Below are positions 5,116 to 31,932 of a DNA stretch of 38,814 bases, in pieces (the first letter of the stretch is position 1; every line of letters starts with the position of its first letter). Source of the stretch: a bacterium. Lineage in GTDB: Bacteria > Armatimonadota > Zipacnadia > Zipacnadales > UBA11051. The stretch covers positions 1-38,814 of the forward strand of contig JAJFUB010000137.1 of assembly GCA_021372615.1 (NCBI GenBank), in the 5' to 3' direction. Made by a program: the position numbers and the translations under genes. A model generated the notes under the pieces. The model was not told where the DNA came from, searched no databases, and was given only the letters and a program-made list of their open reading frames with translations.

Positions 5116-5141
5116 TAGCGCGGGTGGCCTCGCCCGCGCTA
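5116..5141. repeat. REP-like hairpin overlapping a stop codon
   Basis: A perfect 9-bp stem (TAGCGCGGG at 5116-5124, CCCGCGCTA at 5133-5141) encloses the loop TGGCCTCG. The core GCGGG-GGCCTC-CCCGC is shared with the paired element at 37397-37451. It lies between two convergent genes, and its right arm contains the stop codon of the minus-strand UroD gene (5139-5141). It could also act as a terminator, although no T-run follows. Confidence 0.7.
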
Positions 5142-6053
5142 TCCATACCGGTGGGCGCGGACGGCGTCGTGGAAGGCCACGATGGCCTCCCAGGAGACCT
5201 CGTCGGTGAGGGTGTGGCAGGGGGCGGCGAGGTAGCCTCCGCCGGGGGCCATGACGGCCAGCGTGTCGCGCACGCCGGCGATGACCTGCTCGGGTGTCGT
5301 GCGCGCCAGGACGCTCTGCGCCCCCACCCCGCCCCAGAAGGCCAGGTCGCGCCCGTACTCGCACTTGAGGAACGGCAGGTCCATCGCCTCGGCCTGCACC
5401 GCCTCCAGCACGTCCACCCCGATCTCAATCAGGTCCGGGATCAGCGGCGTCACGTGCCCGCAGCAGTGGAAGGCGATCTTGACGGGCGCGAGGGCCCGGA
5501 CATGGGCGACGATGCGCTCGTGGCGCGGGCGGTACCACTGGCGATACTGCGCCGGGCTCATCACGAGCGAGCGCTGGGTGCCCAGGTCGTCACCGATCCA
5601 CACGATATCCACTCCCGCCGCCGCGTACGCGCCGTACAGCGCGCACTTCCACTCCGTGATCTCATCCAGGAGCGACGCGAAGCCGCGCGGGTCCTCGTAG
5701 GGGGCGATGAGCGTCTCGGCGTCGCCGATCCAGTGCTTGGCCTGCTCGAAGACGCCGCAGAAGTAGCCGCCGGCTACGGCCAACCCGCGCTCGTGCAGGC
5801 GCGTGGCCGCTGCTCTCGTGGCGCCGAGCGCTTCGGGGGTGGGGAGGGGAGTGCGGTCGCCGGGCTCGCCGGAGGCCTCCGGCAGGGCCAGCGATACGTA
5901 GCGCACATCGTGGCCGAAGTAGTCGGCGAACTCGACCGGGCCCGCCTCGGCCTGCAGCCGCGCCATTGCCTCGGGGGAGGGCCGCAGGTTGTACGGCACG
6001 CGGTCGGCTTCCTCGTGGCGCAGGGCTGTCAGCACGCGCTCGCGTGGCGTCAT
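5139..6053 (-). CDS. Uroporphyrinogen decarboxylase family protein, methyltransferase-like (zinc motif present)
   Basis: The 304-residue TIM-barrel protein begins with the typical UroD-family start MTPRERVLTALRHEEADRVP. It carries H196-C197-C198-G (FHCCGH) and C279 (APCH). These match the His-x-Cys and distal Cys zinc ligands of MtaA/CmuA-type corrinoid methyltransferases rather than true porphyrinogen decarboxylases. The expected role is methyl transfer between a substrate or corrinoid and a thiol, but no corrinoid protein or activator is encoded nearby, so this is inferred from family only. ATG 6053 is chosen because AGGAG sits 5 nt upstream; a GTG at 6059 overlaps that site. It lies 2 nt after the small basic ORF. 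The stop codon falls inside a palindromic repeat. Confidence 0.88.
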   Translation of the reverse strand: MTPRERVLTALRHEEADRVPYNLRPSPEAMARLQAEAGPVEFADYFGHDVRYVSLALPEASGEPGDRTPLPTPEALGATRAAATRLHERGLAVAGGYFCGVFEQAKHWIGDAETLIAPYEDPRGFASLLDEITEWKCALYGAYAAAGVDIVWIGDDLGTQRSLVMSPAQYRQWYRPRHERIVAHVRALAPVKIAFHCCGHVTPLIPDLIEIGVDVLEAVQAEAMDLPFLKCEYGRDLAFWGGVGAQSVLARTTPEQVIAGVRDTLAVMAPGGGYLAAPCHTLTDEVSWEAIVAFHDAVRAHRYG

Positions 6054-6055
6054 GG

Positions 6056-6241
6056 TCACTCCTGGTCCATGTCACCGCGACGCTGCGTCAGGCGCTGGCG
6101 GCGCCGCTCCCGACGGCGCTGCTCGCGCTTCGAGCCGCCGAAGGGTCCGCCCTTGATGCCGCCGTCGGTGATGTGGCGGTAATGGATGGGGTTGCGCCCC
6201 AGGACCGGCTTGCGGCCCTGCTTCCGTCTGCCCGTACGCAT
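6056..6241 (-). CDS. Small highly basic hypothetical protein
   Basis: This is a putative 61-residue protein beginning MRTGRRKQGRKPVLG, with an Arg-rich tail (KREQRRRERRRQR) and a Gly-rich middle (GGIKGGPFGG). I do not recognise a family. In its favour, the stop codon lies 2 nt before the UroD ATG and the AGGAG that serves UroD lies within its last codons, suggesting translational coupling. It also fills the space between UroD and the divergent nikR-like gene. Against it, the composition could arise by chance in GC-rich DNA and the ribosome site (GGGAC) is weak. An in-frame GTG at 6256 is an alternative start. If real, it may bind nucleic acid, judged only from charge. Confidence 0.45.
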   Translation of the reverse strand: MRTGRRKQGRKPVLGRNPIHYRHITDGGIKGGPFGGSKREQRRRERRRQRLTQRRGDMDQE

Positions 6242-19739: not shown

Positions 19740-20465
19740 TCACAGTTGTCGCCGCGGCCCGAGCCACACCTGGTCGCGCCACAGGCGCAAGTCGCGGAAG
19801 GACACGGGTGCGGCCGACCGGTCCGGTGCCGGCTCAGGTGCGTCCGGCGTCTTGATGTTGTACAGACAACCCAGCCCCCAGCCCCGGAACACAGGTGTGC
19901 TCGGGTCAATGGCATAGGCGCCGGTGAAGGCGGAGTGCGCCCGGATGCGGTCGCCCACCCAGAGCATCTGCCCGTGCGGGCCCCACGAGAAGGCCAGGTC
20001 ATGCCACTTCCCGGTGGGCAGTTCCGGGCTGACGATGATGTGCCAGCGGTCCGGGTCCGGCTGCGGCTGCGAGCAGTAGCCGAACGACACGCGGAAGGCG
20101 GTTGGACCCGCACGCTGCGCAGCGACTTCCAGCGACGGCCACGTGGTCCCCGGCGTGCCCAGGGTGGTGCGCTCGTACGCGTCCGACAGCAGCATCCCCT
20201 CCTGGAAGTCGTCGTCCACAAGGATCGTCACCGCGATCGTGCCCGCCGCGGTGGGCAACTGCTGGCCGCAATCGGCGTAGCGCACCCACGACGCGCCGTT
20301 GCGGAGGGTAACGCACTGCCCGTGTCCGATGGCGCCATGCTCCCGGCCGCGGGGCAGCTCGGTCAGCGGGTCCGCGAAGTCCGGCGCCGGGGCAGCGGCC
20401 AGGGAACCGAGACCCGCCCACATCGTGACGGCGGCGATCCAGGCGTGCCAGGTAAGGCGACGCAT
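19740..20465 (-). CDS. Exported LamG/concanavalin-like protein
   Basis: The 241-residue protein has a signal peptide (MRRLTWHAWIAAVTMWAGLGSLAAAPA) and one LamG-like beta-sandwich. Evidence is the segment GTIAVTILVDDDFQEGMLLSD, the strand pattern KWHDLAFSWGPHGQMLWVGD and the closing FRDLRLWRDQVW. The ATG at 20465 is set by a strong GGAGGAGGT 6 nt upstream; longer in-frame extensions lose the signal peptide. It is first in the operon with the HEAT and LamG-glycosidase genes, which begin 62 nt downstream, and is divergent from the XRE-cupin regulator at 20642. The ligand is unknown. Confidence 0.88.
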   Translation of the reverse strand: MRRLTWHAWIAAVTMWAGLGSLAAAPAPDFADPLTELPRGREHGAIGHGQCVTLRNGASWVRYADCGQQLPTAAGTIAVTILVDDDFQEGMLLSDAYERTTLGTPGTTWPSLEVAAQRAGPTAFRVSFGYCSQPQPDPDRWHIIVSPELPTGKWHDLAFSWGPHGQMLWVGDRIRAHSAFTGAYAIDPSTPVFRGWGLGCLYNIKTPDAPEPAPDRSAAPVSFRDLRLWRDQVWLGPRRQL

Positions 20466-20592
20466 GTCCCGACCTCCTCCCACTGCGGTGGCGCCCGAGC
20501 CCCGGCGGCCAGTTCGTGGGCACCGCGGGTATGCCGTTTTCGCCGTCGCCACCGGGGGAACCTGCCCCGACCCCGTCTTGCGCCACCCGGCC

Positions 20593-20621
20593 TTGACGTC
20601 CAGCAGGGCGTTCGTTATAGT
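20593..20621 (+). promoter_or_regulatory. Sigma70-type promoter of the XRE-cupin gene
   Basis: TTGACG (20593-20598), a 17-nt spacer and TATAGT (20616-20621) form a near-consensus promoter. The start point would be near 20628, only about 14 nt before the GTG start. The near-palindrome CACCCGGTG at 20625-20633 lies over that start point and could be an operator, for instance for autoregulation. A minus-strand TATAAT (complement of 20634-20639) overlaps but has no clear -35. Confidence 0.72.
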
Positions 20622-20641
20622 GAACACCCGGTGATTATACT

Positions 20642-21214
20642 GTGCGGGACACGTCGCCGCCCGAACCCGTCGCCGCCGTCGGGCCCAGGCTCCGCGCACT
20701 GCGGGAGCAGCGAGGCCTGTCCATGCGCGGCCTGGCCTCCCAGGCCGGTGTCGCCGCCAGCTACGTGTCGGCTGTCGAGGCCGGACGCATCTCCCCCACC
20801 ATCGCCACCCTCCGCAAGCTCCTGCTCGTCCTGGGCGAGGACTTCGCCAGCTTCTTCGCCGCCGCCGGTGCGCCACCTGACGACCCCGTCTTCCGCCGCG
20901 AGGACATGCGCCAGGTCGCCGATGCCACGCGCCGCTATACCCTCGTGCTTCCGCGACGGCCGGACATCCGTTGCGAGATTCTCGACGAGGAGTTCCGCCC
21001 CTCGCGCCAGACGCCGCCCTACGAGACGATCGGTTCCGACCTGGCCGGCTACGTGCTGGAAGGTGAAGTGCTGCTGGAGATCGAGGGCCAGGAGCCGCGT
21101 GTTCTGCGGGCCGGGGACGCCTTCTACGTGCCGGCTGACCGGCCCGTGCGCGGCCGCTGCCAGGGCGATACGCCCGCGCGGCTGGTGACGGTGGCCGTGC
21201 CGCCGCGCTACTGA
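20642..21214 (+). CDS. XRE-family transcriptional regulator with cupin sensor domain
   Basis: The 190-residue protein has a helix-turn-helix of the XRE type at ~residues 13-68 (LRALREQRGLSMRGLASQAGVA, then SYVSAVEAGRISPTIATLRKLL). A cupin_2 beta-barrel follows at ~110-188 (GYVLEGEVLLEIEG, LRAGDAFYVPADRPVRGRC). Such proteins usually sense a small metabolite in the cupin and control an adjacent catabolic gene set. GTG 20642 has no good ribosome site and would sit about 14 nt after the predicted transcription start, so translation may be nearly leaderless. Candidate targets are the divergent LamG operon and the downstream Fe-S/GH2 genes. Confidence 0.93.
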   Translation: MRDTSPPEPVAAVGPRLRALREQRGLSMRGLASQAGVAASYVSAVEAGRISPTIATLRKLLLVLGEDFASFFAAAGAPPDDPVFRREDMRQVADATRRYTLVLPRRPDIRCEILDEEFRPSRQTPPYETIGSDLAGYVLEGEVLLEIEGQEPRVLRAGDAFYVPADRPVRGRCQGDTPARLVTVAVPPRY

Positions 21215-21218
21215 CGCC

Positions 21219-21234
21219 GCTGCCCACGGGCAGC
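21219..21234 (+). terminator. Short hairpin after the XRE-cupin gene
   Basis: GCTGCCC (21219-21225) and GGGCAGC (21228-21234) can pair 5 nt after the stop codon, in practice a 6-bp stem with a 4-nt loop. There is no T-run, so it could attenuate rather than fully end transcription into the Fe-S gene. Confidence 0.35.
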
Positions 21235-21270
21235 ACTCATTCCGAGCAGTGTCTATCAGGAGGGCAGGAC

Positions 21271-22212
21271 ATGCTTACGTCGCAGATGGTCAAGGAGTAC
21301 GCGAAGAGCGTCGGGGCTGACATCGTCGGCATCGCCGACATGAACCGCTGGGAGGGAGCCCCGCCGTACGCCGACGCCCGCTACATCTGCCCAGACGCCA
21401 GGACCATGGTCGTCATGGGCTTCCGCATCCCGCGCGGGACCTTGCGCGGCATCGAGGAGGGCACCTTCTACACCGCCTACGCCTCCATGGGTTACGCGGC
21501 CATCAACCACGTCCTGCAGCCCATGGTGCTCTGGCGGGTGACGGCCATGCTGGAGGACGCGGGGTATGAGGCCATGCCCATCTCCAACAACTTCCCGTGG
21601 TGCAACATGGCCACCGGCACCGGCGTGCTGCAGCCCAACTGGAGCCGCCCCGTGTCCCCCGACAAGCCAGCACCCGACGTATTCGTGCACATGCGGCTGG
21701 CCGCGTTCATGGCGGGCCTGGGCGAGATCGGCTGGTCGAAGCTGTTCATGTCGCCACAGTTCGGCCCCCGCCAGCGCCTGGCGGCCATCCTGACCGACGC
21801 ACCGCTGGAGGCCGACCCGCTGTACGAGGGCCCGCAGCTGTGCGACCGCTGCATGCTCTGCGCCCGCGACTGCACCGGCAAGGCCATCAGCACCTCCGAG
21901 TCGGTCAAGGTGGTCGTGGCCGGACGCGAGCTGGAATGGGGCGCGCTGGACTACGAGGGCTGTAGCCGGGCCTTCTGCGGCGCGAACCACCACCACAACC
22001 CCTTCGCTGTGACGGACGAGGACCGCGAGCACTTCGCCCGCCGGAACGAGGAGTCCGAGGGCTACAAGGTGTCGCCGACGTACGGCTATGGCCGGGCGCT
22101 GGAGGGTGCACGGGGCTGCATCCGCGCCTGCATGATCCACCTGGAACAGCAGGGCAAGCTCGGCAACACCTTCGACCGCCCCTTCCGGCGCCGGGCCGAG
22201 TGGCGGCTGTAG
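21271..22212 (+). CDS. QueG/reductive-dehalogenase-like Fe-S protein
   Basis: The 313-residue cytoplasmic protein resembles epoxyqueuosine reductase/reductive dehalogenase-like proteins in its central segment and C-terminal ferredoxin part. C191-x2-C194-x2-C197-x3-C201 (in CDRCMLCARDC) can hold a 4Fe-4S cluster. The second cluster of QueG is not clearly complete: only C231, C236, C283 and C287 remain, the last two in GCIRACM. It is shorter than typical QueG and is unlikely to be the queuosine enzyme itself. Relatives use cobalamin, but a cobalamin site cannot be verified by eye. ATG 21271 follows AGGAGG. It lies between the XRE-cupin gene and the GH2 operon, suggesting a redox step in that pathway. 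Confidence 0.82.
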   Translation: MLTSQMVKEYAKSVGADIVGIADMNRWEGAPPYADARYICPDARTMVVMGFRIPRGTLRGIEEGTFYTAYASMGYAAINHVLQPMVLWRVTAMLEDAGYEAMPISNNFPWCNMATGTGVLQPNWSRPVSPDKPAPDVFVHMRLAAFMAGLGEIGWSKLFMSPQFGPRQRLAAILTDAPLEADPLYEGPQLCDRCMLCARDCTGKAISTSESVKVVVAGRELEWGALDYEGCSRAFCGANHHHNPFAVTDEDREHFARRNEESEGYKVSPTYGYGRALEGARGCIRACMIHLEQQGKLGNTFDRPFRRRAEWRL

Positions 22213-22220
22213 AAGCCCCT

Positions 22221-22285
22221 GGAGCGCGGCTCTCCGAAGCCGCAGCCTTCGCCGTGTGCCCTGCGGCTCTGGAGAGCCGCGCTCC
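22221..22285. repeat. Paired inverted hairpin element (REP-doublet-like)
   Basis: GGAGCGCGGCTCTCC (22221-22235) and GGAGAGCCGCGCTCC (22271-22285) are perfect reverse complements, extended inward by AGCCGCAG (22238-22245) and CTGCGGCT (22261-22268). Each half also folds alone on GCGGCT/AGCCGC. A near-identical half copy lies at 32114-32140. It separates the Fe-S gene from the GH2 gene and may attenuate transcription. Confidence 0.85.
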
Positions 22286-22308
22286 ATGAAGAGATCGGAG
22301 TGTCACCG

Positions 22309-25068
22309 ATGAAGCGTACTGAGCTGCGTCACGGTTGGCGGCTGCAAAGCTCATTCCTGGACCCGCGCGACGGCGCGGTGCTGTCTCGGACGGGCGTCGC
22401 GTTGGACGGCTGGCACGAGACCGAGGCCCCGCGCACGGTCCTGTGCGCGCTCACCAAGGATGGGACGTACCCCGATGTCCGCATCTGGCCGAACCCCTTC
22501 CGGGTGCCCGACTCGTCGGACGCCTTCAACGAGACCCAGGACCTCGCACAGTACAGCCATCTCCCCGACGGCCGGAACCCATGGCGCGATCCGTGGTGGT
22601 ACCGCCTCCAGTTCGACCTGCCCGCCCTGGCCGACGGGCAGCATGTCTGGCTGAACCTCGACTGCCTCAACTACCGCGCCGACGTGTGGCTCAATGGCGT
22701 GCAGCTTGCCGCCCGCGAGCAGATCGCCGGCATGTTCCAACGCTTCCGGTTGGACCTGACGGACCATGTGCAGCCGGGCGCCAACGCCCTTGCCGTTCTG
22801 ATCCACCCGGTGGACCATCCCGGCGAGCCGCAGACCCAACTGGAGGTGTTCGGGCAGGTCCGCGACTTCCGCACCGACCTGTGCAACGATGTCACCGAGG
22901 TCATGTCCGTCGGCTACGACTGCTTCCCGACCGTGCCCGACCGCAACCTGGGCCTGATCCAGGAGGTCTGGCTGGAGGTCACCGGGCCTGTGGATGTGCG
23001 ACACCCCTTCGTGCGCAGCCAGCTCGACCTGCCTGACCTGAACCTCGCGCGGCTGACCGTGTCGGCGGAGCTGGCCAACGCGGCCGGCTCTACCGTGCGC
23101 GGGACGCTGTCGGGCGTCATCACCGACGCCGGCGGGCAGCAGGTCGCCACCTTCTCCCGCCCCGTCACGCTGCTGAGCCACGGGACCCGGGAGATCACGA
23201 TCGCCCCGACCGACGCGCCCGAGCTGGCCCTGGCTGACCCACAGCTCTGGTGGCCGAACACGTACGGGGAGCAGCCGCTGTACGGGCTTGAGCTGACCTT
23301 CACACCTAGCGGCGCGATGAATCGCGCCACTACCACCTCCCAGACGCGGTTCGGGATCCGGCGAGTGGACCGGGAGCTGCACGAGATGGACGGCGCGCAC
23401 GGCTTCCGCTTGCGCGTCAACGGGGAGCTGGTCTTCCAGCGCGGGGGCTACGTCCAGCCGGAGATGATGTTCGACTGGAACCGCGAGCGCGTCGCGGCCG
23501 AGTTGCGTTATCTCGCCCACGCCAACCTCAACTACGTCGTCTTTGAGGACATCCCCAACCCGCCTGACTGGTACCTGGACTTGTGCGACGAGCTGGGGCT
23601 GATGATCTGGAACTGTTACTACGACTGCTACTGGCTGCAGCACAACCGGCCCTGGAACATAGATGTCGCGCTGCTGGAAGACTGCACCGTGGACATCGTC
23701 AGACGCTACCGCAACCACCCGTCACTCATCATCAACATGGCCCAGAACGAGGGCGAGACGCGCGAGGATGTGTACGAGATGTGGCGCCGCACGATGCTGC
23801 AGCACGACCCCGACCGCTTCCTCATTCCCTCCGGCTCCTTCCCCGACTACCGCACCGGCACGCCGCCCTGGTTCGACCGCGAGCTGCCGGTGGGCTGTAA
23901 TGACTACATGCCCAAGACCTATAGCTGGCAGTTGCCGGCTGGCTACTACCAGCTCGTGCGCGACTTCCGCAACTGGATGTTCATGATCGAGAGCGGGGCG
24001 GCGTCCGTCCCGCCGCTGGAGAGCCTGCTGCAGTTCCTGCCGCACCTGGCCGACCTGGGCCCCAACCCCGGCGACGATCCCGGGTGGCCCCTGGATGAGG
24101 CCTGGGCGCACTTTGGGGCCAACTCGTACTACGAGTGGTTCGACCGCGGCCTGCGCCTGATGTACGGCGAGCCCACGGACCTGCAGGACTATCTGTGGAA
24201 GGCCCACCTGACCACCTACGACCAGCACCGCGGGTTCTTCGAGGCCGTCCACCACCGCATGTGGAGCCTGACCAGCGGCTTCGGCGAATGGAAGATCAAT
24301 AGCGCCTTTCCCGACATCCAGTGGCAGCTCTACGACTGGTTCCTGCGGCCCATGGTCAGCCTCTACGCCATCCGCAAGGCCTGTGCCCCGTTCGCGATCC
24401 AGCTCTCGCCGCTGGACCGGCAGGTCCTCGCCGTCAACAGCACACTGGCGGACGCGCCGGGCCTGCAGACTCGGGCCGTAGCGTATGACATGGACCTCAA
24501 CGTGCTCACCGAACAGAGCCTCAGCGCGGACCTGCCGGCCAACGGTGTCCGCGAGTTGCTCGTGCTCGAGCTGCCACCCTCGTTCGTCGAGTTGCCCGTG
24601 TACTTCGTGAAGCTGGAGCTACGCGACGGATCCGGCCAGCTTCTCGCCGACAACTTCTACTGGCTGTCGGCGCGGCTGGAGGATGTGGACGTGCACTTCG
24701 ACCCCGATGCGTTCCGCAGTTGGCCCGCCAACAAGCCCATGATGACCCCGCGCCGCACGCCATGCCTGGGCGAACTGGCCGACCTGCTTCGTGTACAACC
24801 ACAACTGACCGCCGCCAGGGAGGGCAAGGGCCTCGCGGTGCAGGTGCGCAATGACAGCGACGCGTTGGCCTTCTTCATCCGCGCCCGCGTGCTGCGAGGT
24901 GGGGACGAGGTCCTGCCCGCGCTCTGGAGCGACAACTACTTCTCGCTGCTACCGGGGGAGATCAGGGACCTCACGGTCGAACTGCCCGCGACAGAGGGGC
25001 CGCTGACGGTGGCGGTCGATGGCTGGAACATCACGCCGACCACCGTGGAGCTGGAGGCGCCACGATGA
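22309..25068 (+). CDS. Glycoside hydrolase family 2 protein (beta-mannosidase/exo-glucosaminidase-like)
   Basis: The 919-residue protein has the GH2 order. The sugar-binding jelly roll is at ~residues 90-190 (WWYRLQFDLP, ADVWLNGVQLA), an Ig-like domain at ~225-345 ending TRFGIRRVD, a TIM barrel at ~360-680, and C-terminal beta domains follow. The acid/base pair is N480-E481 (NMAQNEG) and the likely nucleophile is E561 (MIESGAASVPP). This form resembles mannosylglycoprotein endo-beta-mannosidase and exo-beta-glucosaminidase rather than LacZ. No signal peptide is seen, so it probably acts in the cytoplasm on imported oligosaccharide. ATG 22309 is favoured, with GGAG 8 nt upstream, over a GTG at 22300. 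Its TGA overlaps the next gene's ATG. Confidence 0.93.
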   Translation: MKRTELRHGWRLQSSFLDPRDGAVLSRTGVALDGWHETEAPRTVLCALTKDGTYPDVRIWPNPFRVPDSSDAFNETQDLAQYSHLPDGRNPWRDPWWYRLQFDLPALADGQHVWLNLDCLNYRADVWLNGVQLAAREQIAGMFQRFRLDLTDHVQPGANALAVLIHPVDHPGEPQTQLEVFGQVRDFRTDLCNDVTEVMSVGYDCFPTVPDRNLGLIQEVWLEVTGPVDVRHPFVRSQLDLPDLNLARLTVSAELANAAGSTVRGTLSGVITDAGGQQVATFSRPVTLLSHGTREITIAPTDAPELALADPQLWWPNTYGEQPLYGLELTFTPSGAMNRATTTSQTRFGIRRVDRELHEMDGAHGFRLRVNGELVFQRGGYVQPEMMFDWNRERVAAELRYLAHANLNYVVFEDIPNPPDWYLDLCDELGLMIWNCYYDCYWLQHNRPWNIDVALLEDCTVDIVRRYRNHPSLIINMAQNEGETREDVYEMWRRTMLQHDPDRFLIPSGSFPDYRTGTPPWFDRELPVGCNDYMPKTYSWQLPAGYYQLVRDFRNWMFMIESGAASVPPLESLLQFLPHLADLGPNPGDDPGWPLDEAWAHFGANSYYEWFDRGLRLMYGEPTDLQDYLWKAHLTTYDQHRGFFEAVHHRMWSLTSGFGEWKINSAFPDIQWQLYDWFLRPMVSLYAIRKACAPFAIQLSPLDRQVLAVNSTLADAPGLQTRAVAYDMDLNVLTEQSLSADLPANGVRELLVLELPPSFVELPVYFVKLELRDGSGQLLADNFYWLSARLEDVDVHFDPDAFRSWPANKPMMTPRRTPCLGELADLLRVQPQLTAAREGKGLAVQVRNDSDALAFFIRARVLRGGDEVLPALWSDNYFSLLPGEIRDLTVELPATEGPLTVAVDGWNITPTTVELEAPR

Positions 25069-26183
25069 GCGATCTGCGCGTCGTGGTGTTGGAGTTCATC
25101 GCCTCCTGCGCCCTGCCCGAGCGGGGGTCGGGACGCTACCGCTACTCGCTCTCCTGCGCCGAGCCGACGCTGTACTCGTCCACGTATGCCGCGATGGCGC
25201 GGTCGCTGCTGGGGGCGCTCGACGATGCGGACGCCGAGGGCTGGGCGGCCTACCTCAGTGCCCACCAGGATGACGATGGGCTCTTCCGCGACCCCGTCAT
25301 CTTCGGGCAGGGGTGGTATGCCGACGATCCGCTCTGGTGCGGGCGGCCCCACCTGACCTGCCATGTCATCACGGCGCTGACGTGCCTGGGCGCCGTCGCC
25401 ACGAAGCCCCTCGCTTGGCTCGACCCATGGCGTGACTGCGATGCGTTGGAGGCCTGGCTGGAGGCGCGCGATTGGGGTGCACGCGTGGGCTGGACCGGCA
25501 ATGAGATCATGAACGTGGGCACGCTGTTGCAGTACGCCCGCGACTTCCACCACGACGCTCGCGCCGGCGCGGCAGTGGAGTGCCTGCTCGACTGGCTGGC
25601 GGAGCACCACCTGAACCCCGCCACCGGCGTCTGGGGCGACGTGGACGTGACCGACCCGCTCTGGCGGTCCCACGCCGTGCAGGCCGCCTACCACTGGTGG
25701 CCGCTGCTGGCCTATGACGGCCACCCGTTCCCGTGCGTGGAGCGGGCACTGGACACCGTGCTGGCGACGCAGAACCCGCGCGGCGGCTTCGGCTGGGGTG
25801 TGCACAACCCCGCCGAACCGTTCGCCAGCAGCGCCTGCGAGGACATCGACTCCCTGGACCCGTTGGCGCGAATGGCGAGCCAGACGACGTACCGCCAGGC
25901 CGACGTGCAGGCCGCCCTGCGCACCGGGGCGCAGTGGGTGCTGACCAACCAGACGCCCGACGGCGGCTTCGTCTTCATCCGCGACCGCGCCTTCGAGTAC
26001 GGCCACCCACAACTGCGCGGTGAAGCCGACCGGGGCGCCATGTTCCCGACCTGGTTCCGCCTGCTGTCGCTGGCCCTCGCCGACACCGCCGCGCCGGGCA
26101 GCGTGCCCGGCGGCATCCCGTGGCAGTTCACCTCGTGCCCCAGCATGCAGTTCTGGGGCGCTCCCGGAGCCTCCCCGCCATGA
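25065..26183 (+). CDS. Alpha/alpha-toroid (prenyltransferase/squalene-cyclase-like fold) protein
   Basis: The 372-residue protein shows repeats of the terpenoid-cyclase/prenyltransferase toroid, such as AYLSAHQDDDGLFRDP, CLLDWLAEHHLNPATGVWGD, VLATQNPRGGFGWG and WVLTNQTPDGGF. The catalytic DxDD of squalene-hopene cyclase is not seen and there is no signal peptide, so a cyclase role is not supported. Proteins of this fold also include sugar-processing and peptide-binding members. ATG 25065 overlaps the GH2 stop as ATGA and its own stop overlaps the UroD homologue start the same way. That implies close functional linkage with the glycosidase and the isomerase. Function unknown. Confidence 0.85.
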   Translation: MSDLRVVVLEFIASCALPERGSGRYRYSLSCAEPTLYSSTYAAMARSLLGALDDADAEGWAAYLSAHQDDDGLFRDPVIFGQGWYADDPLWCGRPHLTCHVITALTCLGAVATKPLAWLDPWRDCDALEAWLEARDWGARVGWTGNEIMNVGTLLQYARDFHHDARAGAAVECLLDWLAEHHLNPATGVWGDVDVTDPLWRSHAVQAAYHWWPLLAYDGHPFPCVERALDTVLATQNPRGGFGWGVHNPAEPFASSACEDIDSLDPLARMASQTTYRQADVQAALRTGAQWVLTNQTPDGGFVFIRDRAFEYGHPQLRGEADRGAMFPTWFRLLSLALADTAAPGSVPGGIPWQFTSCPSMQFWGAPGASPP

Positions 26184-27409
26184 CCTCGCGCGCACGCTTC
26201 CTGGCCGCTCTGAACGGCCAACCCGCCGACCACCCGCCGCTGACCACCTGGTGCTTCGGGCTGCCGGCGCTGCCGGGCCTGAAGTGGGAGATGGATGGCG
26301 TCCCCCGCGACTACTGGTACTCCCTGCGCATGGAGCATCTGCACACGACCACCGTCCCCTGGACGCTGGCGGACGACTTCCGGCGGGTGCAGGCCTGGGC
26401 CTCGCTGGGCGTGGACGATGTGCTCGATGTCTCGATCCCCTGGAGCATGGCGCCGGAGGTGTCGCTCCGCGAGTGGTGCCCGGACCGGTATGAGGGCGGA
26501 TACCCGGTATGGCTGCGGGAGTATGACACGCCCGCCGGGCCGCTGCGGCACGCCGTCAAGCGGACCGATCCCGAGCCCCCCGGCTGGCCCATCCAGCCTC
26601 GTTCCGTGCCCCTCATCGAGGACTTCAACATCCCCCGCGCGGTGGAACATGCCGTCAGCAGCCCCGCCGACGTGGCGGCCATCCCGTACCTGTACGGGAC
26701 GCCGGACGAGTACTGGCGAGAGTGGTTCGACGTGCGGATGCAGCAGGTCGGGGCCTTCGCCCGCGCGCAGGGCGTGGCCGTGCAGGCCTGGTCGGCGTTC
26801 GGGATGGATGGCGTGGTGTGGCTGACGGGGACGGAGGGCGCAATCCTGATGGCCCTCGACCAGCCGGAGGCCTTCGGGCAGCTCGTGGACCACATCGCTG
26901 CGACGGACGTGGCCCGCACAGAGCTGGCCCTGTCGTCGCCGGACGTGGACCTCATCGTCCAGCGCGGCTGGTACTCCTCGACCGACTTCTGGTCGCCCGC
27001 GCTGTTCGACCTCTATGTCTTCCCGCACCTGCAGGAGCTGGCCGGGCTGGTGCATCGGCACGGGCGCAAGCTGGCCTATGTGATGACCACCGGCGTGCAG
27101 CGCCTCGGCCCGCGCCTGGCCGATGCCGGGGTGGACCTGCTGTACTTCGTGGACCCCCTGCAGGATGGCGTAGACCTGGCGTGGGCGCGCGACGAGCTGG
27201 CGCCGCGCCTGGCGCTGGTGGGCGGCTGTAATGCCCTGACGGTCGGCAGCGGCGATGCGGCGCGTATCCGCCGGGAGGTCCGTCTGGCGCTGGACACCCT
27301 CGCCGGCACTCATCGGCTCATCCTGCATCCCGTGGATGCGCTCTTCCCCGATACGCCCTGGGCCGGCGTCGAGGCCCTCATCACCGCCTGGCAGGAGTGG
27401 TGCACATGA
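26180..27409 (+). CDS. UroD-family protein lacking the zinc ligands
   Basis: The 409-residue protein has the UroD-family start (MTSRARFLAALNGQPADHPP) and TIM-barrel pattern. The segment equivalent to the zinc-binding FHCCG of methyltransferase members reads YVMTTG. The distal Cys region reads LHPVDALFPDTP, with no Cys. The usual His-x-Cys...Cys site is therefore absent, which argues against Zn-thiolate methyl transfer. True porphyrin decarboxylation is also unlikely from context. ATG 26180 overlaps the toroid gene's TGA and its own TGA overlaps the isomerase ATG. The local pairing with a fucose/arabinose-isomerase-like enzyme suggests a sugar-derived substrate, by inference only. Confidence 0.87.
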   Translation: MTSRARFLAALNGQPADHPPLTTWCFGLPALPGLKWEMDGVPRDYWYSLRMEHLHTTTVPWTLADDFRRVQAWASLGVDDVLDVSIPWSMAPEVSLREWCPDRYEGGYPVWLREYDTPAGPLRHAVKRTDPEPPGWPIQPRSVPLIEDFNIPRAVEHAVSSPADVAAIPYLYGTPDEYWREWFDVRMQQVGAFARAQGVAVQAWSAFGMDGVVWLTGTEGAILMALDQPEAFGQLVDHIAATDVARTELALSSPDVDLIVQRGWYSSTDFWSPALFDLYVFPHLQELAGLVHRHGRKLAYVMTTGVQRLGPRLADAGVDLLYFVDPLQDGVDLAWARDELAPRLALVGGCNALTVGSGDAARIRREVRLALDTLAGTHRLILHPVDALFPDTPWAGVEALITAWQEWCT

Positions 27410-28734
27410 GCAACCCGGGCCGTCCCTTGCAGGCGAGAGTGGCGGTGTGCGGGTTGTGCAGCCCGCTGGAAGTCGGGGCCGATCAGGCCCCGGTACACGC
27501 AGCGGCGCTGGTGCGGCTGCTGGAAGAGGCCGGCTGTGAGGTCGTGCCTCTCGGAGTGGTGGACACCCCCGACCGGGCCGCGGCGGCCGGGCGGCTGTGC
27601 GCCGAGCAACACGTGGACGCGATCGCCGCCGTCGCGGCCAGTTGGTTCGAGGACTACCTCGTGCTCGACCTGATCGAGGAATGGCCCGCGCCGCTGGTGC
27701 TGTGGTCCACGGTGGGCATGGAAACCGGCGCGCTGTGCGGGATGCAGCAGTTGACGTGCACCCTCAAGCAGCTCGAGCGCCCCTTTGTGGCCCTCTTCGG
27801 CGAGTTGGCCGACCCGGCATGCGCCGAGCGGGCCCTGACGGCGCTGCGGGCAGCGGCGCTGCGCGCGCGCTTGCGCCGTGCCCGTATCGGCCTGGCCGGG
27901 TCCCGTGTCGGCGGCATGACCCACACCGCGCCGAATGAGTTCATGCTCAAGCGCAGCATGGGGCCGCGGGTCGTACCGCTGGACTTGCCGCTGCTCCTGC
28001 AACGTGGCGAGGCCGTGACGCCGGAGGCGCGACAGAGGCACTGGGCGGAGATCGTGGGCCGGGCGGGCGAATGCCGCGTGCCCGACAGCGCCGGCCTCGA
28101 CTCCATGGGTGTCTACGTGGCGCTGCGGGAGATCGTGGTCGAGGAGGGGCTGGACGCGGTCAGCGTCGGCTGCTATCCGCACCTGATGGGGCGCGTGTGC
28201 CTGGCGGCCTCGCTGCTGGCCGATGAAGGCGTGCCGATGGCTTGCGAGGGCGATGTGAACGGGGCGGTGGGCCAGCTCACTCTCCAGCTTCTGACCGGCC
28301 GGCCCACCCATCACACCGATTGGCTGAACCCGCTGGTCGATGGCACGGTGGTCTTCACCCACTGCGGGTCGGGGTCGTTCTCGCTGGCGGAGGACCCCGC
28401 GCAGATCAGCCTGCGCGAGGTGCGGCTGATGGGGCAAGGGGTGTGCGCCCTGTTCCCCGCCCGGCCCGGCCCGGTGACGCTGCTGAGCCTTATCCCCATC
28501 GCCGACGGCACTCAGGTGGCCCTGCTGGAGGGCGAGGCGTTGCCGACCGAGATGGTCTTCCCCGGCAACCCGGTGCGGGTGCGGTTCGACCGGCCGGTCG
28601 CGGAGCTGATCGCCTGGATCCACGAGGCCGGCGTCGGTCACCACTGGGCGATCGGCGCCGGCCATGTGGGGCAGGCGGTGCGGGATTGGGCGGCCCTGGC
28701 GGGGCCAGGACTGCGGCTGGTCACGCCGGGCTAG
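27406..28734 (+). CDS. L-fucose/L-arabinose isomerase-like protein
   Basis: The 442-residue protein matches the FucI/AraA-like family, which interconverts aldoses and ketoses with Mn(II). The conserved C-terminal block reads ACEGDVNGAVG (E281), HHTDW (D305) and FTHCGSGSFSL (H319), positions corresponding to the metal ligands or catalytic acids of the family. It is shorter than FucI (~590 residues) and AraA (~500), as is common for uncharacterised family members, so the substrate is open. ATG 27406 overlaps the UroD homologue's stop as ATGA. It is the last gene of the operon, and its TAG shares the CTAG tetranucleotide with the stop of the convergent gene. Confidence 0.9.
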   Translation: MSNPGRPLQARVAVCGLCSPLEVGADQAPVHAAALVRLLEEAGCEVVPLGVVDTPDRAAAAGRLCAEQHVDAIAAVAASWFEDYLVLDLIEEWPAPLVLWSTVGMETGALCGMQQLTCTLKQLERPFVALFGELADPACAERALTALRAAALRARLRRARIGLAGSRVGGMTHTAPNEFMLKRSMGPRVVPLDLPLLLQRGEAVTPEARQRHWAEIVGRAGECRVPDSAGLDSMGVYVALREIVVEEGLDAVSVGCYPHLMGRVCLAASLLADEGVPMACEGDVNGAVGQLTLQLLTGRPTHHTDWLNPLVDGTVVFTHCGSGSFSLAEDPAQISLREVRLMGQGVCALFPARPGPVTLLSLIPIADGTQVALLEGEALPTEMVFPGNPVRVRFDRPVAELIAWIHEAGVGHHWAIGAGHVGQAVRDWAALAGPGLRLVTPG

Positions 28735-30815
28735 CCTAGACTGCGCCGGTACGCTGGCAACTCCTCGTCCAGCACGCGGCGCATCTGGCCGATCTTCCAC
28801 TCCAGGTGCGCCCGGTCGCACATGTACTCCATGCTCGGCTCCCAGCCCAGGCGCGAGTCCGCGTCCACGAGCGGAATGGCCCCGGCCGCGTTGGCGATCT
28901 CGGCCTCGCCCAGCTCGCGCATCTGCGCGATGAGGGCGTCGGCCGCCGCCGCATCGGCGGCATTGAGCAGATCACGCTTGAGCAGCCACCAGCGCTTGGT
29001 GTTGATGGTCGTCTGCACATAGCGGCGGATGAACCGCCCCAGGCCGAGCATCCGCAGCGCCTCGGGCTGCTGCCGCTCGGGGGTGACAGCCACGGCCTGC
29101 TCCAGCTTCGCCAGTCCCTGCTCCCAGTGAGCCGCGAACTTCTCCAGCAGGCCGATCTCGGTCGGCACATCCTCCGGCTTGTGCGGGTTGTAGCGGGTCG
29201 TCAGGATGCAGTTGCCGAAGTGCGCGTAGGGGGCGTCCGGGAACTCCTCGGGCTCATCCTGGAAGAGCAGCGGATAGGACGGCCCCACACGGAAGGGTCC
29301 GTACTGGTCCTCATTGGTGGGCACGTAGAACGGCCAGGCCTCGCTCCAGTGGCGCCAGGCTTCCACCGCCAGGGGGCCGCCCTCGGGGCCGAAGTCGCGC
29401 ACCGCGATCCGCGCGGCCATCTCCTCGGTCGTCGTCTCCGGCGCCCAGTACGCCCACTTGGCCAGCTCATTGACGAACGACGGCCACCAGCCGTAGTGGT
29501 GCGACTCCATCAGCCCCACCAGGCCCCAGTCCCGCTGCGCCTTGCGGACCGCCTCGTAGCGCTTGGCCCACTGGAAGGGGATCGGCTGGTAGGGGATCAC
29601 ACCCATGTCCCAGGACACGCCGGCAGTGTTGGTCATGCTGTACAGGGGGATGCCGCGCTCGTGGGCGGCCTGGGCCTCGCTGCGGAAGTACACGCCCGGC
29701 CCCTCGAAGGACGTGGTGTAGTCCACGCAGCGAGTCACGATGCCATCCTTCTCGATGTTCTCGAACATCTCGAAGGTGGCCTGCAGGGAGATGTCGGTGG
29801 GCAGCGACCGGATCAGCGCCAGTCGGTCCTCCTCCGGCGCCCAGCCCCAGTTGTAGGTCCAGAAGACGATGTCCAGGTCGGGGTTGACCTGCCGCAGGAT
29901 CGGCTTGAGCAGCTCCAGCCACTCCGGGTAGTCGTAGCACGGCCACCAGCCGGGGCTGGGGCGCTTGTCCTTGGTGCGGTCCACGGTGGGGTCGAGGCGC
30001 AGCTTGCCGGTGGTGTGCTCGTCGTGGCTGGGGAACTCGCACGACTCGCCCACGAAGACAATGCCTTTGGCGCCGGGGCAGGAGCGCATGAGGTTGCCAT
30101 AGGTGCTCTCATAGTACGCCTGGGCGTCGGGGTCGGCCGGGTGCTTCTCGCTGATCATGTAGCTGTACAGGTACACGTCCACCCCATAGAGCGCCGCCCG
30201 GTCAATGAGGTTGTTCATGTCCAGGTAGCCGGTCGTCGTCATGTCCGTGCCCTTGGCGAAGACGAGAATGGCATCCATGCCGGCGTGGGCGATGGCATTC
30301 AGTTGCGTGTCGGGAAACTGGTCAATGCCCCAGCCGGAGTGGATCATGCGCGGGGAGAAGAGCGGCTCGCGGATGAGGTCTTGCGCGTCCAGGAACGGCC
30401 CCTGGCGCAGGTTCATCAAGTCCTCGAGATAGTAGCAGCCCTGCCCGATGCCGCGCTCGTCCGCGCCGCAGACGGTGATCGTGTCCCCGGCCACCTGCAG
30501 CCGGTAGCTCCGGGGCTTGCTGAGGCCCTGGCCCAGCGCGGGCGCCTCGGCGGCGGTGGTCAGGCGGATCGTCCGCGCCGCGCCGGCTCCCTCGCCCCGC
30601 ACGAGCAGTGTCGAGACCCCCATGCTGCGCAGCAGGTAGTCCTGCAGGTCCTGGGCCAGGCCGAGGAGGTAGTCGGAGGGCGAGGGGTTGACGGCGATCT
30701 GCCAGCCCTCCCCGATGACGGTCTCGCCGTCGCGGGGCTGCTCGGCCGGGTCTCGTCGGTCGGTGCGATGGATGATGTTCAGTCTCTGCCGGAACTGGAA
30801 GTTGCGCTCGGGCAT
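28731..30815 (-). CDS. GH20/GH67-like glycosidase-fold protein
   Basis: The 694-residue protein has an N-terminal alpha/beta domain like that preceding GH20 and GH67 barrels (residues ~50-150; SYRLQVAGDTITVCGADE, then GCYYLEDLMNL). A TIM-barrel region follows (~155-480), with candidate acids in FVGESCEFPSHD and barrel strands such as DIVFWTYNWGW. The C-terminal helical part (~480-694) is rich in Trp and acidic residues. It has no signal peptide, so it is probably cytoplasmic. Cleavage is inferred from fold only; hexosaminidase and glucuronidase are both possible. ATG 30815 has AGGAG 7 nt upstream. The stop overlaps that of the plus-strand isomerase gene, leaving no intergenic space. Confidence 0.86.
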   Translation of the reverse strand: MPERNFQFRQRLNIIHRTDRRDPAEQPRDGETVIGEGWQIAVNPSPSDYLLGLAQDLQDYLLRSMGVSTLLVRGEGAGAARTIRLTTAAEAPALGQGLSKPRSYRLQVAGDTITVCGADERGIGQGCYYLEDLMNLRQGPFLDAQDLIREPLFSPRMIHSGWGIDQFPDTQLNAIAHAGMDAILVFAKGTDMTTTGYLDMNNLIDRAALYGVDVYLYSYMISEKHPADPDAQAYYESTYGNLMRSCPGAKGIVFVGESCEFPSHDEHTTGKLRLDPTVDRTKDKRPSPGWWPCYDYPEWLELLKPILRQVNPDLDIVFWTYNWGWAPEEDRLALIRSLPTDISLQATFEMFENIEKDGIVTRCVDYTTSFEGPGVYFRSEAQAAHERGIPLYSMTNTAGVSWDMGVIPYQPIPFQWAKRYEAVRKAQRDWGLVGLMESHHYGWWPSFVNELAKWAYWAPETTTEEMAARIAVRDFGPEGGPLAVEAWRHWSEAWPFYVPTNEDQYGPFRVGPSYPLLFQDEPEEFPDAPYAHFGNCILTTRYNPHKPEDVPTEIGLLEKFAAHWEQGLAKLEQAVAVTPERQQPEALRMLGLGRFIRRYVQTTINTKRWWLLKRDLLNAADAAAADALIAQMRELGEAEIANAAGAIPLVDADSRLGWEPSMEYMCDRAHLEWKIGQMRRVLDEELPAYRRSLG

Positions 30816-30963
30816 GGTTCACTCCTGGGCGCGGGTTGCGCCGTCCCTGCGTGTTCGGCGTCGCGGGCCGGTTCTCCTGTCCCGCAGGGGCGGGAGGTTT
30901 CGGTCGCACGGCAGCGAAGAGGCCGGCGCAGGTAATCGGACCCAAGACAGCCGGAGGTTTGCC

Positions 30964-31932
30964 ATGATCAGAATTGGCCTCATATCCGCCGCCTCGTATG
31001 CCCCCACCTTCAACGGTGACGACGTGCCCCGCAAGGCCGCCATGACCCATGGGCCGATCTTCTCCAGTTGCTTCAACGGCTACGACCCCGCGCAGCTCGA
31101 CGCCCACGCGGGCGAGGGCAAGTTCCCCTTCAGCCCCGTGGAGCAGCAGTTCGAGGGCGTGCGGGCGGTCAAGATCTGGGACCCGCTGCGCGAGGCCGCC
31201 GAGCATCTCGCGGCCATCGTCGGCATCCCCGAGGTCTGCGACACGCCCGAGCAGTGCACCGAGGACGTGGACGCGGTCATCATCCCCGACGACGGGTCGG
31301 GCTCTCAGTACAAGTACGCCGTGGCCGCGCTGGAGAAGGGCCTGCCGACGTTCGTGGACAAGCCGCTGGCCATGACGGCCAAAGAGGCCAGGCAGATCGC
31401 GCAGGTGGCCAAGGACCACGGCGCGCCCTTCATGTCCGCCAGCTCGCTGCGCTTCGTGCCCGACATCGTGGCCCTGCGCGACGAGGTGCGCGGCGGGGCG
31501 TTCGGGGAGGTCAACCTGGCCAGCGTGGCCGGCGGCGGCGATCCGATCTGGTACGGCATCCACGCCCTCTCGATGGCGTACGGCGTCTTCGAGTCCGGCG
31601 CGGTGTCCTGCCTGAATGTCGGCGTGCCCGACCGCAACGTCGTCCGCGTGCGCTATGCCAACGGCCGCGATGTCATGCTGATCGTCGGCCAGGCCCCGCA
31701 GATGTGCGGCGGGTACCAGATCAACATCTACGGCACCAAAGGCTGGAAGTCGGTCACGCCGAACCTGAAGGACCTGTATGTCTACCTCATGCAGCGCTTC
31801 CTGGCCCTGGTGCGCGACGGCGAGGTGAGTGTGCCGATTGACGAGGAGGTCGAGGTCATCGCGGTGCTGGAGGCCGGACAGCGGTCCCTGGCCGAGGGCC
31901 GCGAGGTCACGATTGCCGAGATGCTGCGGTAG
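30964..31932 (+). CDS. Gfo/Idh/MocA-family oxidoreductase
   Basis: The 322-residue protein has the Gfo/Idh/MocA arrangement. The N-terminal Rossmann-type part includes VDAVIIPDDGS and the variant motif VDKPLAMTAKEA, where family members usually have EKP. The C-terminal beta-sheet domain contains GGGDPIWYGIHALSMAYG, including a His at the usual catalytic site. The N-terminal strand reads RIGLISAASYAPTF rather than the typical GxGxxG loop, so NAD(P) binding may differ. ATG 30964 follows GGAGG at 7 nt. It diverges from the GH20/GH67-like gene. Oxidation of a sugar or cyclitol is likely; substrate unknown. Confidence 0.9.
   Translation: MIRIGLISAASYAPTFNGDDVPRKAAMTHGPIFSSCFNGYDPAQLDAHAGEGKFPFSPVEQQFEGVRAVKIWDPLREAAEHLAAIVGIPEVCDTPEQCTEDVDAVIIPDDGSGSQYKYAVAALEKGLPTFVDKPLAMTAKEARQIAQVAKDHGAPFMSASSLRFVPDIVALRDEVRGGAFGEVNLASVAGGGDPIWYGIHALSMAYGVFESGAVSCLNVGVPDRNVVRVRYANGRDVMLIVGQAPQMCGGYQINIYGTKGWKSVTPNLKDLYVYLMQRFLALVRDGEVSVPIDEEVEVIAVLEAGQRSLAEGREVTIAEMLR

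Follow-up and report, generated by a model that had tools for sequence, protein, structure and literature searches.

The UroD superfamily is known for porphyrin decarboxylation and methyl transfer. Here we describe a four-gene operon in which a member of this superfamily is encoded together with a glycosidase, a toroid protein and a sugar-isomerase-like enzyme (genes GH2, TOR, UROD and ISO), at positions 22309-28734 of a 38,814-nucleotide stretch of an Armatimonadota genome (contig JAJFUB010000137.1, assembly GCA_021372615.1), referred to in its entirety as the window. UROD has Pfam URO-D (PF01208) in common with HemE and with methylcobalamin methyltransferases of the MtaA/MtbA/CmuA type, but it is not a HemE equivalog, its MtaA-type zinc ligands are replaced, and its partners are sugar genes. 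ISO has the fold of AraA and FucI at only ~15-18% identity, and the partners of those enzymes (ribulokinase/epimerase and fuculokinase/aldolase, respectively) are not found in the window; its nearest NCBIfam model is the sulfoquinovose isomerase SftI of the sulfo-transaldolase pathway, but it lies far under that family's cut-off, and no sulfoglycolysis partner genes were seen. TOR has the six-hairpin alpha/alpha toroid of protein prenyltransferase beta subunits and class II terpene cyclases, but lacks the DxDD motif of the cyclases and carries conserved polar residues at inner-helix N-termini. GH2 has the domain order and both catalytic carboxylates of the exo-beta-D-glucosaminidase CsxA and GH2 beta-mannosidases, from which it is distant in sequence. 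Sugar-catabolic operons are already known; the GH2-TOR-UROD-ISO combination and the partnership of TOR with UroD proteins were not found in the open-access literature searched, and are new relative to it.

The operon probably degrades a sugar compound via one so far undescribed step. We consider it fairly probable that it is a sugar-catabolism operon controlled by an XRE-cupin regulator, and composed of a GH2-TOR module for sugar release and a UROD-ISO module for sugar conversion, which also occur apart. An earlier sequence-only reading had proposed four genes joined by three exact ATGA overlaps, and this was confirmed on the sequence, with each ATGA combining a stop and a start codon at 25065-25068 (GH2/TOR), 26180-26183 (TOR/UROD) and 27406-27409 (UROD/ISO). 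Third-position guanine-cytosine (GC) content was 0.90-0.91 per gene in all four, as in coding-type codon-position GC. The genes of the operon are:

22309-25068, + strand: GH2, exo-glycosidase related to CsxA and beta-mannosidases, catalytic residues E481 and E561
25065-26183, + strand: TOR, (alpha/alpha) toroid protein of a conserved family, structure model with a predicted local distance difference test (pLDDT) score of 93.1
26180-27409, + strand: UROD, UroD-superfamily protein without MtaA-type Zn ligands (V301, T303 and D386 at these positions)
27406-28734, + strand: ISO, aldose-ketose isomerase of the AraA/FucI fold, candidate metal ligands E281, D305, H319 and H413

Families, folds and candidate active sites

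GH2 matched Pfam Ig_GlcNase (71 bits), Glyco_hydro_2_N2 and Glyco_hydro_2, and had no apparent signal peptide. E481 and E561 align with CsxA positions 469 and 541, and both catalytic glutamates are kept, in agreement with the earlier assignment of a cytoplasmic-type GH2; we read it as a retaining exo-glycosidase. At the acid/base position, GH2 has N480-E481 versus S-E/S-D in CsxA, and so does not have the serine preceding the acid/base residue that is a trait of the exo-beta-D-glucosaminidase subfamily.

UROD matched PF01208 at 44 bits, in line with its earlier description as a UroD homologue, and the hemE equivalog TIGR01464 was not among its NCBIfam matches, even at E 0.1. Single-sequence phmmer searches with ISO and UROD gave no solved relatives; profile searches did, and the top profile match of UROD among solved structures was methylcobalamin:coenzyme M (CoM) methyltransferase 4ay7. 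All three MtaA-type Zn ligands, at 4ay7 positions that we take to be its Zn ligands from established knowledge of the MtaA family, are replaced in the aligned UROD (H to V301, C to T303, C to D386). No member of UROD's clade retains the H-x-C site, which is kept in 31 of 75 UroDs examined. UROD is neither HemE nor a canonical Zn methyltransferase. An alternative is O-methyl-sugar demethylation, with UROD as an MtaA-like methyltransferase acting on a methylated sugar freed by GH2, and ISO isomerising the product afterwards; the relationship to 4ay7 argues for it, as do an MttB-family methyltransferase gene (L074:5690-7168) located 3' of UROD-ISO-GH38 in genome G028, and the 68 UroD-family loci of the genome, considered with the H-x-C sites kept elsewhere. 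Since the Zn site is missing in UROD, with the H-x-C part of this loss being clade-wide, demethylation is unlikely; the operon showed no corrinoid protein, nor did one rank among the families beside 40 UroD regions of the genome. Among all window genes scanned no corrinoid partner was seen either, other contigs not having been searched for corrinoid families.

TOR gave only sub-threshold squalene-cyclase/prenyltransferase matches in Pfam and NCBIfam, with no Pfam family above threshold. Its model aligned with farnesyltransferase beta at Z 22.7 and a root-mean-square deviation (rmsd) of 3.7 over 298 aligned residues, and was assigned the toroid fold on this basis; Foldseek also returned squalene-hopene cyclases, GH88, unsaturated glucuronyl hydrolases, mannose isomerase and 2-epimerases, at template modelling (TM) scores of ~0.5. 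The family is rare, and its members are 46-76% identical across phyla. The DxDD motif of class II terpene cyclases is absent from the window TOR, as the sequence-only reading had stated, and from 15 further members (16 of 18 in all), and in the other two both matches fall inside a variable loop. The invariant residues H96, H100, N146, E259, D260, D262 and R332 sit at the starts of inner helices and are largely polar; by analogy with toroid enzymes, they would line the cavity. The nearest folds, farnesyltransferase beta and squalene/terpene cyclases, could point to isoprenoid or terpenoid-glycoside metabolism, in which TOR would be a terpene cyclase or prenyltransferase acting on the aglycone freed by GH2. 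Because DxDD is missing and polar residues are conserved, we regard such chemistry as highly unlikely, and the GH88, unsaturated glucuronyl hydrolase and 2-epimerase toroids were about equal to these folds in Foldseek TM-score.

ISO matched AraA_C below threshold in Pfam, and its top NCBIfam match was SftI (E 4.5e-31, 108 bits versus a cut-off of 700). The AlphaFold model of ISO (pLDDT 89.9) aligned over its full length with L-arabinose isomerase (VIA Z 35.9, rmsd 2.9, 430 aligned; Foldseek TMq 0.85), and with L-fucose isomerase at Z about 30. The AraA Mn2+ ligands E306, H350 and H450 align with ISO E281, H319 and H413, while E333 has no exact counterpart and the invariant D305 lies three residues away, a mapping that rests on the AraA alignment. 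With the fold and three AraA ligands kept, the proposal of a FucI/AraA-like isomerase stands. In Oscillospiraceae genome G217, an ISO homologue is encoded among a D-lyxose/D-mannose isomerase, a PfkB kinase, a mannitol-1-phosphate dehydrogenase, a LacI regulator and a monosaccharide ABC importer, and because of this neighbourhood a catabolic sugar-isomerase role of ISO is likely. Whether that sugar might be sulfoquinovose, with ISO as SftI in an operon degrading sulfoquinovosides, was weighed on the finding that SftI tops the NCBIfam matches of ISO and its relatives (E 4.5e-31 to 2.3e-43); the scores of 108-149 bits are low against the cut-off, the window genes scanned included no GH31/GH188 sulfoquinovosidase, no transaldolase and no further gene of sulfoglycolysis, and the neighbouring glycosidases are of GH2, GH38, GH42 and GH20 types. 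For the low scores and absent partner genes, sulfo-sugar catabolism is very unlikely.

Conservation and modular make-up across genomes

Protein searches over 201 genomes of the phylum Armatimonadota gave matches to ISO in 13 genomes, close UROD (at least 58% identity) in 11, TOR in 9, and close GH2 (at least 65%) in 5. UROD-clade and ISO proteins were found together in 9 of 10 genomes, with the window genome left out (Fisher p 1.8e-12), and co-occurrence was also seen for TOR with ISO (p 0.008), GH2 with ISO (p 0.0006) and GH2 with TOR (p 0.008), all p values being uncorrected for shared ancestry. UROD and ISO are neighbouring or a few genes apart in G004, G013, G016, G024, G028, G067, G121 and G138, with overlapping reading frames in G016, and lie on separate contigs in G001. 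In G016 and G020 (L018), TOR comes immediately after GH2, and in G004 the two genes are close to each other. Since GH2-TOR and UROD-ISO are apart in G016, and share one contig over a span of ~11 kb in G004, the window operon looks like two modules fused into one overlapping operon. The earlier idea of one four-gene unit is thus borne out as conserved co-occurrence, and not as an invariant unit.

For TOR, 22 distinct loci were found at a threshold of at least 46% identity, and a UroD gene is the immediate neighbour in nine of them (the window, G112, G108, G004, both G133 loci, L013, L021 and L102; p 4.9e-10 at the UroD density of the window's own genome, G000, with its 68 loci), with one intervening gene in G016 and L025. 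In L014, UroD, TOR and GH2 are contiguous in this order, and an ATGA overlap is present. The gene after TOR in L013 is one continuous open reading frame encoding GH2::UroD (L013:11019-14036; GH2 domains at 101-624, UroD domain at ~651-1003). The linker of this fusion contains an inverted repeat, for which reason it awaits confirmation as genuine; the stop codon may have been lost when a hairpin inserted there. In a UroD tree, the TOR-neighbour UroDs fall mostly in three well-supported clades, two of which hold only TOR-linked members, the third being the window/ISO clade, and one (L012) falls outside all three. The zinc-site motif is lost in two of the UroD clades A, B and C. The tie between TOR and UROD holds, then, and extends to several clades beyond this particular UroD.

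G000 (6.4 Mb) is rich in URO-D family loci with heterogeneous neighbours; many of its UroDs retain the H-x-C methyltransferase motif, some others show H-x-D, and some lack both. A second UroD-family gene in the window (5139-6059, - strand), with an H-x-C motif, lies next to a gene encoding a large DUF6259/CBM_4_9 protein. We considered whether the UroD paralogues of G000 might all have a role in sugar metabolism, and rejected this: 72 UroD neighbours gave no dominant Pfam family, so the sugar association is specific to UroD clades A-C.

Around both UROD-ISO and TOR, GH38, GH42, GH20/DUF4838-type and GH2 proteins recur, and because these glycosidases vary around a constant UROD-ISO pair, the pattern suggests one sugar, or a few related sugars, freed from differing glycosides. 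Some UROD-ISO/TOR loci also contain Gfo/Idh/MocA oxidoreductases, DegT aminotransferases, DUF6785 proteins and MatE transporters; in L023, L024 and L102, a MatE-family transporter gene adjoins TOR or lies a few genes off.

The number of UroD loci in the genome, and the differing gene order among relatives, would be expected if the genes had merely gathered by accident inside a gene-rich carbohydrate island. Adjacency and co-occurrence are far beyond chance, and there are conserved overlaps, a fusion and a common regulator, which makes this explanation extremely improbable. The sequence-only reading had held that relatives scattered and never adjacent would mean an accidental grouping; conserved adjacency of relatives was found, and the grouping of GH2, TOR, UROD and ISO, parts of which turn up together in several phyla of bacteria, is not accidental.

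The XRE-cupin regulator and flanking features

The features flanking the four genes are:

20593-20621, + strand: sigma-70-like promoter TTGACG-17-TATAGT, 5' of the XRE-cupin gene
20610-20625, no strand: palindrome GTTCGTTATAGTGAAC across the -10 box, a candidate operator for XRE-cupin binding (putative role)
20642-21214, + strand: XRE-cupin (PuuR-like) regulator, member of the conserved system
21271-22212, + strand: QueG/reductive-dehalogenase (RDH)-like Fe-S protein, outside the conserved module
22220-22287, no strand: hairpin of repetitive extragenic palindromic (REP) type separating the Fe-S gene from GH2, with a stem of -54.4 kcal/mol (z -5.2)
28731-30815, - strand: GH20b-domain protein, convergent with ISO, 4-base overlap

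The XRE-cupin protein combines a helix-turn-helix (HTH) and a cupin domain as PuuR-type regulators do, and matched the PuuR model at E 1.5e-21 (76.8 bits versus a cut-off of 211), but it is linked to TOR, UroD and ISO genes and not to putrescine catabolism. A homologue search over 14 genomes (E 1e-20) gave seven homologues in six genomes, including the window's own, all of which adjoin TOR, ISO or clade A/C UroD genes. Five belong to loci of TOR, UROD or ISO (window, G108, G290, G090 and G138), and the two genes of G133 are each divergent beside a clade-A UroD. The XRE-cupin gene belongs to the conserved system. Palindromes of the TGTGC-N8-GCACA type were found 5' of five of the seven genes, in three genomes other than that of the window; those of L153, L077 and L079 are exact, and those of L154 and L084 have one mismatch each (L153 and L154 being the G133 loci). 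In the window, this operator had no match above chance; GTTCGTTATAGTGAAC, which has one match in the whole window, overlaps the -10 box of the sole promoter-like site in 20300-31100. The palindromes upstream of XRE genes, GTTCGTTATAGTGAAC included, are candidate operators.

The QueG-like Fe-S gene that the sequence-only reading had noted upstream, together with the XRE-cupin gene, is present, and was rejected as a module member because a genome can hold as many as 12 paralogues and the best orthologues lie on other contigs; it does not show the conserved adjacency found for the four operon genes. Tandem arrays of QueG/RDH-like Fe-S genes were seen on G024:C72, G290:C28 and G290:C46. The arm of the REP-like hairpin, GAGCGCGGCTCTCC, has 73 exact copies across G000, frequently as +/- pairs with a spacing of 40-50 bases; the reversed control had 0 copies. 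The GH20b-domain protein has a 25%-identical relative near UROD-ISO in G016.

Proposed pathway and significance

In the pathway that we infer, from the sugar and its route of import to the sequence of the steps and the chemistry of UROD and TOR, the XRE-cupin protein would sense a sugar or sugar derivative and control transcription from the promoter at 20593. An imported glycoside would be cleaved by GH2 to give a monosaccharide or derivative, with TOR acting on the same glycoside or on the freed sugar. UROD would then catalyse a step on the sugar that is neither porphyrin chemistry nor Zn-dependent methyl transfer, and ISO, as a metal-dependent aldose-ketose isomerase, would convert it to a ketose that enters central metabolism.

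Several points weigh against this pathway. A single pathway for all four genes is not certain, because G016 carries GH2-TOR on contig C10 and UROD-ISO on C7, and because most genomes with TOR have no ISO. Shared ancestry may account for some of the co-occurrence, and GH2 may be cut off from the XRE promoter by the strong hairpin at 22220-22287. The window operon contains no kinase, aldolase or sugar importer. Genes of the relatives come from a home-made caller run on contigs of metagenome-assembled genomes (MAGs), and only one MAG contig shows the L013 fusion.

More tentatively, and with rather less confidence than we place in a two-module sugar-catabolism operon, TOR and UroD clades A, B and C could form a new enzyme partnership for a new sugar-transforming reaction, with TOR founding a new carbohydrate-active family under dedicated XRE-cupin control, in Armatimonadota, in Lentisphaerota/Verrucomicrobiota-type genomes and, for TOR and ISO, in Oscillospiraceae.

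UroD genes are strongly expanded in this genome, and through this system three UroD clades are connected with glycosidases, a sugar isomerase, a toroid family and a shared regulator, so that the role of these UroDs can be tested with four proteins amenable to purification. TOR may represent a new family of carbohydrate-active enzymes, and if it is true that these UroDs act on sugars, this would be new chemistry for the UroD superfamily.

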